DNA of 34,145 bases from Rhodospirillales bacterium. Its GTDB lineage: Bacteria; Pseudomonadota; Alphaproteobacteria; CACIAM-22H2. Below the pieces are notes generated by a model that was not told the DNA's origin, made no database searches, and saw only the letters and a list, made by a program, of their open reading frames with translations. Below are positions 3,763-31,501 of the stretch, in pieces (position 1 is the first letter of the stretch; each line of letters starts with the position of its first letter). The position numbers were made by a program, and so were the translations under genes. The DNA is taken from positions 1 to 34,145 of the forward strand of contig JAEUKY010000153.1 in assembly GCA_016794005.1 (NCBI GenBank). The letters are read 5' to 3'.

Positions 3763-5571
3763 ATGCAGGATGAAGGGGTTGAAGGGGGTTCCGGGCGCTG
3801 GTCGATGGCCGGCGTGCTCGGCGTGTCGATCGCGGGACTCGTCGGGCTGGCGCTGGCGGTGGTGCTGGCCATCCAGATTTCGGTCGGCCGCCATGCCACG
3901 AACGACCTGTTCCAGGCCAAGGGGGCGCTGACGATCGACCTGATCGCCAGCCGCGTGCGCGCCCAGCTCGATCCGGCCTCGGCCCAACTCTCGTTCATCG
4001 CCGAAGTGCTCGCCCAGCCCGGCGTCGATTACGGCCGCAGCCGGATCGCCGACCTGATGACCGGGGCGCTGGCCGGCGCCCCGCAGATCCAGCGCCTCGT
4101 CTTCCTCTATCCCGACGCGAAGGCCGTGATCGTCGAACGCGGGATCGACGCGGCCAACGTGTCGTTCCCCGACCTCGCCGCCCTGCCGGTCGTGCAGGAG
4201 GGCCTTCGCCAGGCCAACGCGCAGACCGGCGGACACTGGGGCGAGTTCATCTTCGCCGACATGGATTCCGGGCCGGCGGTGAACCGGCGGCACGCGGTCT
4301 GGCGCGACGGGAAGTTCGTCGGCGCGCTTGCCGCACTCGTGCCGCTGCGCGAACTGTCGGTCATCGTCGAGCAGTCGATCGCGGCCGAGTATGGCGGCGT
4401 CCCCTTCATCCTCTACGGCGAGGATTCCGTGCTGGCGCACCGGCGGCTGATGTCGCCCTTCCCCGGCCTGTCGCCCGAACATCCGCTGCCCTCGCTCGCC
4501 GAGCTCGGCGATCCGGTTCTGGAGCGCATCTGGTCGGGCCGGCGCGCCGCCCCGCTGATCGCGCAGGCCAGCGGCATCCGCGCGGTCGATGTCGGCGGCC
4601 AGACCTACATCTTCCTTCGAAAGCAGCTGCCCGAGTTCGGCGCCGTGCCGTGGAACGTCGGCGCCTATTTCCGCGTCGGCGATTTCGCCGACGACGTCCG
4701 CTCGATGGCGCTGGCGGGTCTTGCGGGCCTGATCGTGCTCGCCTTCGCGCTCGTCTGCGCGGTGATCCTCGCGCGCCGGCTCGCGCGGCCCACGCGGCGC
4801 TTCGCGCGCGCGGCCGCCCAGCTCGCCGACTTCGATTTCGCCAGCGCCGACGCGCTGCAGCGCAGCCGCATCCGCGAGATCGACGAGCAGGCCATCGCCT
4901 TCAACCGCCTGATCGCGGCCCTGCGCTGGTTCGAGGCCTACGTGCCGCGCAAGCTGGTGCGCCAGCTCGCGCACAGCCCCGACCGCGGCGGCGTCGTCTC
5001 CACGACGCGCGACGTGACGATCATGTTCACCGACCTGGTCGGCTTCACGGCGCTGTCGCAGGCGATGACGCCCGAAGCGACGGCCGACATGCTCAACCGC
5101 CATTTCGCGCAGGTGATCGCGGCGGTCGAGGCGACCGGCGGAACCGTCGACAAGTTCATGGGCGACGGCGTGATGGCGTTCTGGGGGGCCCCCGAGCATC
5201 ACGACGCGCACGCGCGCGGCGCCCTCGACGCCGCGCGCAGCATCGCGGCGACCGCATCGGAAGGCGCCTTGCGCATGCGCATCGGCGTGCATACCGGCCC
5301 GGTCGTCGCCGGCAACGTGGGCAGCCGCGAACGGCTCAACTACACGATCCTGGGCGACGCCGTGAACGTCACGCAGCGCATCGAACAGCTCGGTCACGCG
5401 CTGATGGAACCCGGTGCCCGGACGTGCGTGCTGGCGAGCCGGGCGACCTACGAGGCGGCGGGTGCCCCCGCCGACTTCGTGCCGGCCGGCGAGTTCAGCC
5501 TTCGCGGCCGCGAGGCCCCGGTCGAGGTTTTCCGGCTTTCGCCAGATGGGGCCGCTCGACCAGGCCCGTGA
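3763..5571 (+). CDS. Membrane-bound class III adenylate cyclase with extracytoplasmic sensor and HAMP linker
   Basis: The 602-residue protein has a transmembrane helix at about 16-38, a periplasmic domain of roughly 270 residues that looks Cache-like, a second helix at about 315-337, a HAMP-type linker, and a cyclase domain from about 415. Catalytic residues of a class IIIb adenylate cyclase are all visible: metal Asp424 (MFTDLVGFT) and Asp468 (KFMGDG), base-selecting Lys464 and Thr528 ([10 protein letters not shown]), and transition-state Asn535 and Arg539. It should make cAMP in response to an external ligand, which cannot be named. The ATG at 3763 is preceded by GGGA; an ATG at 3805 is possible but would shorten the cytoplasmic tail before helix 1. 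Its last 77 bases overlap the convergent trmJ-like gene. Confidence 0.93.
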
Positions 5572-29006: not shown

Positions 29007-29068
29007 ATCCGCAAATCTTGCACTGCACACTGCCGACTCCGTCGTCGACAGGCGATGCCCGTCGAGCC

Positions 29069-30262
29069 ATGTCCGATACCGAACTCGAAGACGTAAAAAA
29101 GTACCTTGCAGCAACCAAGGCGGCCCTCGCCGGCGCGCCTCAGAAGCCGCACGACCTGTCGCATAAGAATCTCGCGAAGGCGAATTTCGAAGGCCGGTCG
29201 ATGATCCGCGCTCGGCTGATGGGTTCGAATCTCCGCGAAGCGCGCCTGGCGCGTGCGGAACTGACCGAAGCGGACCTGTTCGGCGCCAACCTCACCTTCG
29301 CCGACATGAACGGCGCCAACCTCAGCGGCGCCGTGCTGCGCGGTGCGGCACTCAAGGGCGCCAACATGAACGGCGCCAATCTCTCGGGTGCCGACTTCCG
29401 CGGCGGCGTGATGATGGGCGCCTCCGGCGCCGGGCGCATCGGGCTCGACGTGACGGACCTGACGGACTGCCTTGCCGAGTACGCGACGGCATCGCGTGCG
29501 CAGATGGCCGGGGTCGACCTGTCGGGCGCCAGTTTCCAAGGCGCCAATCTCGAGGGCGCCATCCTGTTCGGCGCCAATCTCGCGAACACCAACCTCGCCT
29601 ATGCCAACCTGCGCGGTGCCGACCTTTCGGACGCGCGGATGGGCAAGACGTCGCTGATCGGCGCCGACCTTTCCGGCGCCAAGCTCGCGAACGTCAAGGC
29701 AGACGGGGCGAATTTCTCCGGCGCCAAGCTCGCGAATGTTGAGACCAAGAATCTCGATCTTTCGAAATGCATCGTCGAGTCCAGCCCGCCGCTCGTCGGG
29801 CGCGACAAGCTGCCGGCACAGTTGCGCACCGCACTCGATGGACACGCGGAATGGCTTGCCTCCGTCGGAAAGAAGGGCGCGCCCGCCCACCTCGAAGGGG
29901 CGGATTTCAGCTTCTTCGACCTCTCCGGGATCGATCTCAGCGGGGCGATCCTGCGTAACGCCAAGTTCGTCGGGACGCGGCTTGCCGGCGCCATCCTTCT
30001 CCTGACGAATCTTCGCGGCGCCGACCTGTTCCATGCCGACCTGTCCGGCGCCAAGCTCCACGGAACGATGTTCGATGGCGCCAAGCTTCGCGAGACGGAT
30101 CTGGGCGATGCGATCGCCGGAACGCTGCCGATCGCCAACAGCGACGGTTCGCAGTCCAACCGCGCGCAACCGACCAGCTTCATGCATGCCGACCTGACGG
30201 GCGCGCGCGTCAAGGGCTTCAACATCGGGCACGCCAATACCGAAGGCGCGCGACTTCCCTGA
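29069..30262 (+). CDS. Pentapeptide-repeat protein
   Basis: The 397-residue protein consists largely of A(D/N)LxG-type pentapeptide repeats, which fold into a right-handed quadrilateral beta-helix. Repeats fill about residues 30-118, 146-236 and 274-350, with shorter traces at 371-394. Breaks lie at about 119-145 and 237-273; the second holds LDGHAEWLASVGKKGAPAHLEGADF, a His-x-x-Trp-Leu motif seen in front of repeats in other alphaproteobacterial members. No signal peptide or membrane helix is seen, so it is probably cytoplasmic. Relatives include DNA-mimic gyrase protectors, but the fold alone does not give a function. I take the ATG at 29069; a TTG at 29018 is in frame. A CRP-type promoter lies upstream and the convergent cyclase-like gene ends 3 bases away. 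Confidence 0.88.
   Translation: MSDTELEDVKKYLAATKAALAGAPQKPHDLSHKNLAKANFEGRSMIRARLMGSNLREARLARAELTEADLFGANLTFADMNGANLSGAVLRGAALKGANMNGANLSGADFRGGVMMGASGAGRIGLDVTDLTDCLAEYATASRAQMAGVDLSGASFQGANLEGAILFGANLANTNLAYANLRGADLSDARMGKTSLIGADLSGAKLANVKADGANFSGAKLANVETKNLDLSKCIVESSPPLVGRDKLPAQLRTALDGHAEWLASVGKKGAPAHLEGADFSFFDLSGIDLSGAILRNAKFVGTRLAGAILLLTNLRGADLFHADLSGAKLHGTMFDGAKLRETDLGDAIAGTLPIANSDGSQSNRAQPTSFMHADLTGARVKGFNIGHANTEGARLP
29282..30082 (+). repeat. GGCGCC hexamers at multiples of 15 bp within the pentapeptide gene
   Basis: I count about 18 GGCGCC hexamers in the repeat-coding part, many at exact 15- or 30-bp steps (29525, 29540, 29555 and 29570 in one block; 29312, 29327, 29357 and 29372 in another). 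They encode the Gly-Ala of the repeats, but alternative codons are rarely used, so the DNA is repetitive as well as the protein. Confidence 0.8.
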
Positions 30263-30265
30263 AAT

Positions 30266-31384
30266 TCAGCTTGCCGGGCGCACCAGCGTCAATTCGGCGT
30301 GCTGCAGGCCGCAATAGTACGGATCGACGCCGTCGAGAAATGCGTTGAGCTTCATGTTGAAGCAGAAATGCTCGATGCCGTGCTTGTCGACGACGCGGAT
30401 CTTCTGGCGCTGGAAGCGCCCCTCCGGCATCCGGCGCCCCGTCAGGTAGAGCGACGTGCGCTCGATCCTGGACCCCATGACCGGAAGGTCGATAAGGCGC
30501 GCGAGGCCGCCCGCGACGCGTTCGACGAACTGCTCCTCGTCGATCCACACGCCATTGACGTCGTCCCAGCGATGGAAGGCGCCGACAAGAATCTGATCCG
30601 CCCGGCAATTGGCGATGAGACGCGCGACCTGGATCGTCACGTCGCCGACGATGAACTCGTTCCGGCTGGTACCCGTCCGGTCCGGCTGGTGATAGTTGTA
30701 GTGACTGCCGATGCCGAGAGCGGTGCGGAGCGCGGGCACGGCCTCCGGGACGGCGACCGAGCGGCGCAGCGCGGCATGGAAGATCGCGAACAGGATATAT
30801 CCGAGAAAGAGATCGATGTCCGCTTCGAGACCCTTGCGCTCGTTCCAGATGTAGAAGCCGTCGCCGGTCGTCGAACGGCACATCCGGAAGCCGATCTCGT
30901 GGGCCAGCGCCGTCTCCGCGGCGATGTTCAGGGCGAACTCGAGCGTGGCGAGCTGGCTGGCCTGCTGTTCGGGCTGCAACTTGGAAAAGCCGACGATATC
31001 GACGAGCAGGACCGCGCGCTGGTCGGTCTTCGTCACTGCGAAGGGGGCGAAAACCTCCTCGACGACCGAAGCCGGCGTCTGTCCGGGTCCGTCGCCCACC
31101 GCCTGTGTCAGGCGGATGTCGAGGGCGCGCGACTGCAGCACCTCGGAAACTTCCTCGAACGTCTTGTCGCCCATCTGGCGCGCGCCGACGAAGATCCGGC
31201 GCGGCGCGTCCTTAAGCGCGAACAGGCGGATCTTGGGTGCGGTGATGATCTCGATGCCGGTGGAGGTCGGCCGCCAGCCGACGAGCGCATTCGACCCGAA
31301 GCGCCACACCGCATAGAGCGTGCGATGCAACTCGGCCCGGATCTCCGGCGCGGCTTCTGCGGAAGGGGCAATATCTGTCGGCAT
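30266..31384 (-). CDS. Class III nucleotidyl cyclase-like protein with altered substrate residues
   Basis: The 372-residue protein has an unrecognised N-terminal part (about 1-120) and a class III cyclase-like domain (about 122-275). It keeps metal-binding Asp129 (LLVDIVGFSKL) and Asp175 (TTGDGFYIW), and the Arg255 that stabilises the transition state. The base-selecting Lys of adenylate cyclases is Ser171, the Thr/Asp position is Phe244 (RNEFIVGDVTIQVARL), and the usual Asn is Ile251. It may therefore use another nucleotide, be inactive, or act as a binding domain. A C-terminal stretch of about 95 residues, with FCFNMKLNAFLDGVDPYYCGL, is of unknown type. No signal peptide or membrane helix is clear. 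The ATG at 31384 has a GGTG upstream; a GTG at 31405 is possible. It is tail to tail with the pentapeptide gene. Confidence 0.75.
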   Translation of the reverse strand: MPTDIAPSAEAAPEIRAELHRTLYAVWRFGSNALVGWRPTSTGIEIITAPKIRLFALKDAPRRIFVGARQMGDKTFEEVSEVLQSRALDIRLTQAVGDGPGQTPASVVEEVFAPFAVTKTDQRAVLLVDIVGFSKLQPEQQASQLATLEFALNIAAETALAHEIGFRMCRSTTGDGFYIWNERKGLEADIDLFLGYILFAIFHAALRRSVAVPEAVPALRTALGIGSHYNYHQPDRTGTSRNEFIVGDVTIQVARLIANCRADQILVGAFHRWDDVNGVWIDEEQFVERVAGGLARLIDLPVMGSRIERTSLYLTGRRMPEGRFQRQKIRVVDKHGIEHFCFNMKLNAFLDGVDPYYCGLQHAELTLVRPAS

Positions 31385-31501
31385 CGGAATTACACCAGAA
31401 TACACCGAATCTCGGGAACTAGAACCGGTTCGTCTTGGCGATTACCGATACGGACAACCCTTTGTAGTCTGATATGAGGACTTTTATATCCTATCTGAAG
31501 C

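Follow-up and report, generated by a model that had tools for sequence, protein, structure and literature searches.

A family of likely class III-type nucleotidyl cyclases lacking the usual base-selecting pair, often encoded beside a pentapeptide-repeat protein

INTRODUCTION

Few signalling enzymes are understood as well as the class III cyclases. In this class, an arginine at the position discussed here as Arg255 binds phosphate or the transition state, and the residue pair that selects the base varies in non-canonical members. To our knowledge, the roles of pentapeptide-repeat proteins are mostly unknown.

Two described groups come closest to the protein studied here. The DUF2652 proteins (PF10851) are predicted cyclases whose base position holds Lys or Glu and in whose mycobacterial members Ile replaces Asn; they and Rv1900c, both without this Asn, have been discussed as cyclases (PMC4886424). 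The PycC enzymes of Pycsar systems have specificity residues F100, R142 and Q144 in EaPycC and Y50, D94 and R97 in BcPycC, and their structures show how a class III pocket can be remodelled to accept pyrimidines (PMC11224242). Here we analyse a cyclase-like gene in a 34,145-nucleotide stretch of Rhodospirillales DNA (the window), together with its relatives and the repeat-protein gene next to it.

RESULTS

A divergent class III-type core

The gene and the layout of its product are as follows.

30266..31384, minus strand: cyclase-like gene, 372 aa, ATG start
Protein layout: about 115 N-terminal residues, a class III-type core at about 118-273, and a C-terminal part with DKHGxxH

The ATG lies at position 31384, where the orthologs also begin, and an in-frame GTG at 31405 marks only the mechanical maximum of the reading frame. 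Against the two nearest relatives compared, dN/dS is 0.07 and 0.21; judged from these sequences, the gene is under purifying selection. The reading frame and coordinates given in the preliminary description are borne out by the ATG, the ortholog starts and dN/dS. It had left the N-terminal 120 and C-terminal 95 residues unassigned; the ortholog alignment does not support treating them as separate domains, and presents them instead as conserved segments of a single family architecture. A Pfam scan of the window neighbours identified the repeat protein, a glycosyltransferase and a methyltransferase. Neither the viral contigs nor the plasmids scanned held any relative of the cyclase-like protein, and nothing therefore points to a mobile or phage element.

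HMMER searches of the query against Pfam, NCBIfam and PADLOC returned nothing relevant (no Pfam or PADLOC family at E<=1), as did those of 21 family members against Pfam and PADLOC, and neither the query nor the family profile had a relevant match among PDB sequences. The class III core homology rests on hhalign rather than HMMER. A first hhalign comparison with few full-length cyclases was weak (4.7%); with a trimmed, deeper set, the 47 non-degenerate members aligned to class III catalytic domains at 90.5% probability over 146 columns. The score was 45.3; none of 60 column shuffles exceeded 19.1, and the reversed profile gave 14.0. Other families scored lower, at 17.3 for GGDEF (0.4-0.8% probability, two-sequence GGDEF profile), a weak 26.0 for DUF2652, whose own shuffles reach 20.7, and 15.9 for PycC (one PycC sequence). 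The core is therefore class III and outside the named families tested, in agreement with the relationship first proposed for it. A GGDEF diguanylate cyclase was rejected on the same hhalign probability and on the absence of a GG(D/E)EF motif from the family alignment. Taken on its sequence, the protein most likely belongs to an unnamed family whose members are nucleotidyl cyclase-type enzymes of the class III fold. An AlphaFold2 model built from three sequences (the window, L029 from a MAG labelled Alphaproteobacteria and L030 from a MAG labelled Rhodospirillaceae) had a pLDDT of 33 and was unusable.

The metal site is kept and the substrate-reading residues are replaced

The cyclase at 3763-5571 of the window served as reference. 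It had been called canonical, and its PF00211 match (E 8.8e-24) and full catalytic set (Asp424, Lys464, Asp468, Thr528, Asn535, Arg539) agree with this. Profile-profile alignment pairs D129 with D424, D175 with D468, I251 with N535 and R255 with R539, upholding the motif register of the preliminary description. The corresponding features of the query are listed below.

30998..31000, minus strand: Asp129, first metal ligand, kept in 45/47 non-degenerate relatives
30860..30877, minus strand: RSTTGD, residues 170-175, with Ser171 replacing the adenine-selecting Lys and Asp175 as second metal ligand (47/47)
30620..30655, minus strand: FIVGDVTIQVAR, residues 244-255, with aromatic F244 for Thr, I251 for Asn and R255 kept
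30368..30388, minus strand: DKHGIEH, residues 333-339, a C-terminal motif that degenerate paralogs have lost along with their catalytic residues

Numbering from the ATG confirmed the claimed retention of Asp129, Asp175 and Arg255, and the changes of Lys, Thr and Asn to Ser171, Phe244 and Ile251; both the retained and the replaced residues are consistent in the 47 relatives. D175, R255, I251, H228, Y178 and K334 are invariant (47/47), so that the Arg of the class III transition-state pair is always present and its Asn is always Ile. The Lys position is occupied by Ser in 40 members, Thr in six and Met in one, and the Thr position by Tyr in 36 and Phe in 11. The usual pair of Lys with Asp or Thr (or of Glu with Cys) is thus missing throughout the 47. 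Because this pair is known to vary, its absence excludes a canonical adenylate or guanylate cyclase, not class III. The DKHG..H set is nearly invariant. The active-site residue set as a whole is nearly invariant in these relatives. The statement that every base-selecting residue is changed stands for the Lys and Thr positions; the Asn is usually assigned to the transition state and not to base selection (PMC4886424).

Asp129 is replaced in two of the 47, by Glu in L034 and by Gly in L085. Both loci are linked to a repeat protein, and L177, the larger version of the L085 locus, is flanked by repeat proteins on both sides.

Compared with PF00211 class III cyclases, the query shares the core order, the metal Asp pair (46 residues apart, against 44 in the window's canonical cyclase) and the Arg at the transition-state position. 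It differs in having no PF00211 match and in its changes of Lys to Ser or Thr, Thr/Asp to Tyr or Phe, and Asn to Ile, and its family has an invariant His228 and distinct N- and C-terminal segments that include DKHG..H. With DUF2652 it shares both metal Asp residues, the Arg and, as in the mycobacterial members, a conserved Ile for Asn. Membership of DUF2652 was nevertheless rejected, as there was no PF10851 match for the query at E<=1 nor for 21 members, and the profile score was weak. With PycC it has in common a class III metal site and a non-canonical base pocket, but when matched by distance from the metal Asp, EaPycC F100, R142 and Q144 correspond to Leu127, Ser171 and Thr173, and the query carries neither the DUF2652 nor the PycC residue set. 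The PADLOC PycC models matched neither the query nor any of 21 members, and no PycTM or PycTIR gene was found by Pfam among the window neighbours adjacent to the query; the recurrent neighbour of its relatives is the repeat protein. Pycsar membership is therefore not supported, since PADLOC gave no match, the pocket differs and no receptor or effector gene was found adjacent.

We consider it plausible that the protein is a cyclase using a base other than adenine. The same residues bear on whether it could instead be a regulator that binds nucleotide or metal on a class III scaffold, taking up NTP with Mg without cyclisation and signalling nucleotide state to the repeat protein. Lys and Asn are missing in every member and the loss of Asp129 is tolerated in two repeat-protein-linked ones, as such a regulator would allow; against it stand the invariant Arg255 and Asp175, the nearly invariant DKHG..H set, and the treatment of DUF2652 and Rv1900c as cyclases without the Asn (PMC4886424). 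On balance we regard a regulator as somewhat unlikely.

Distribution and degenerate paralogs

Whole-genome search recovered genus orthologs at 74-84%, together with two more distant paralog groups, one at about 38% and the other at about 29%. Further members occur across Alphaproteobacteria (27 of 385 genomes searched) and in another class of the phylum (3/78). The genomes used for loci are partly draft, and neighbour genes were called by simple prediction.

Two lineages are degenerate: clade C, found within the genus beside polA, and L099-L101. Both have lost L127, D129, T172, Y178, R220, H228, V246, T250, I251, A254 and R255, as well as D333, K334, H335 and H339 of the C-terminal motif; D175 is lost in clade C only. 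Both keep G30, W37, W180, G247, Q264, T315, G316, N343 and G359. The two may reflect either one loss or two (tree support of 53, long branches). As the DKHG..H residues disappear together with the class III catalytic positions, the motif would be expected to work with the active site, and the pattern of sequence loss suggests that it belongs to it.

These paralogs also bear on the proposal that the query is itself a degenerate, dead cyclase domain retained solely as a dimer partner. Such proteins do persist, clade C being a paralog of this kind that purifying selection has maintained in the same genomes. The loss of catalytic residues is, however, confined to clade C and L099-L101, and the query and its clade hold the full set that clade C lost. 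Because these residues are conserved in the family while the true dead paralogs lose them, the query should not be a dead domain. This option of the preliminary description is contradicted by the near-invariant active-site set of the 47 relatives, and we rejected a class III pseudocyclase as highly improbable.

The clade C paralog (L051:6101-7261 and L035-L044) lies beside polA and is under purifying selection throughout the genus. Its neighbours, polA and a response regulator, were considered as a functional clue and set aside, since they look like a case of stable synteny. The L099-L101 relatives are longer (ORFs of 478-481 aa), have Glu at the first metal position, belong to one family-level group and have no repeat protein nearby.

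A pentapeptide-repeat protein as recurrent partner

The neighbouring gene is the following.

29018..30262, plus strand: pentapeptide-repeat partner, 414 aa, PF00805 E 1.2e-60

The partner consists of two repeat blocks joined by the linker HAEWLASVGKKG (HxxWxxSxGxxG). It is a clear PF00805 member that differs in this two-block architecture, the linker and its linkage to a cyclase-like gene. The two genes are convergent, and the partner ends 3 bp from the stop codon of the cyclase-like gene.

A homologous repeat protein of about 400 aa lies at most 700 bp away in 34/50 non-degenerate loci, 3.5 kb away in one more (L048), and near none of 14 degenerate ones. No repeat protein was present in the DNA read of 15 of the 50 loci; the flank is short on one side in seven of these, and three are the members from another class. 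These linkage counts rest on phmmer, a regular-expression detector having missed six clade B partners; in a scan by that detector, subject to the same misses, unlinked repeat-protein ORFs were practically absent from 792 kb of loci. The pair occurs in eight family-level genome groups. It is mostly convergent, and in L172-L174, L189 and L192-L194 it is instead tandem and operon-like, with the repeat protein upstream and gaps of 3 to 83 bp. Given this variable arrangement, the linkage has outlived rearrangement.

Partner distances correlate (mirror-tree r = 0.96, reached in 0/2000 permutations), with shared ancestry explaining part of the correlation. In the genomes with two pairs (G300, G301, G302, G304, G503 and G589), each repeat protein tracks the clade of its own cyclase, and the pairs have therefore duplicated and diverged together. 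The cyclase-like gene and the repeat-protein gene probably form a working two-gene module. A text search of the open-access literature found no description of a cyclase and pentapeptide-repeat pair.

Two loci depart from the usual organisation. At L048:7357-10851, 3.5 kb separates the partners, which are otherwise 10-30 bp apart, possibly through an insertion. The partner gene at L180:7540-8735 is seemingly split into two reading-frame pieces.

Other repeat-protein copies and a cyclic-nucleotide lead

The repeat-protein family is multi-copy. The HxxW linker occurs in eight proteins, the window's own included, in the first set read of the genome, and the whole genome has about 11 repeat-protein genes. 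One paralog of the partner (L224:3523-6014, G000:C361) is encoded immediately upstream of a cNMP-binding protein (PF00027, E 3.3e-18) whose cassette, FGELALIDGMPRAASA, is canonical where read. The same gene order is found in all six genus genomes that have that protein (L239-L243 included). Other copies adjoin unrelated genes, and the cNMP-binding neighbour is therefore a lead, not proof.

This neighbourhood is relevant to another reading, in which a class III-like enzyme would catalyse a reaction other than 3',5'-cyclisation of one NTP, such as nucleotidyl transfer to another acceptor or formation of a linear or cyclic oligonucleotide. The rebuilt substrate-contacting positions and the additional conserved His228, Lys334, His335 and His339 would suit such an enzyme, but the core aligns with cyclases and not with GGDEF, and other chemistry has no positive support. 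Since the same repeat-protein family stands beside a cNMP-binding protein, a cyclic-nucleotide role is likelier than another chemistry, which we judge quite improbable.

Further copies have other neighbours. At L223:1627-4853 and at L218, two repeat-protein genes from this genome lie near PII-like signal protein and aminotransferase-like genes, and one of them is also near a glnA-like gene (all names by eye). At L222:1423-7575, a DUF748 protein is flanked by two repeat-protein genes.

DISCUSSION

Our preferred reading, to which we assign a probability of roughly 0.55, is that the protein works as a metal-dependent enzyme of class III type, that its substrate site has been rebuilt and that the repeat protein is its dedicated partner. 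Catalysis would be dimeric, with two metal ions held at Asp129 and Asp175 and Arg255 placed on the phosphates. The substrate would be a nucleoside triphosphate, and its base would be recognised other than through the usual Lys-Thr pair. The Lys and His residues of DKHG..H may reach the active site and replace the contacts made by Lys and Asn in ordinary cyclases. The repeat protein, in turn, may bind the cyclase-like enzyme or relay its activity.

A more speculative extension, which we think unlikely in its entirety, would make the pair a new second-messenger module. Here the aromatic/Ile pocket and DKHG..H would serve to produce a cyclic nucleotide distinct from cAMP and cGMP, which the dedicated repeat protein would sense or transmit. 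In the same cell, a sister repeat protein would be coupled to a receptor for cyclic nucleotides.

The family keeps a catalytic metal site without the usual substrate-reading residues, and none of the family libraries used contains it. Should it prove active, it would add to the rules that govern base choice in class III cyclases, and it would tie pentapeptide-repeat proteins to cyclic-nucleotide-type signalling.
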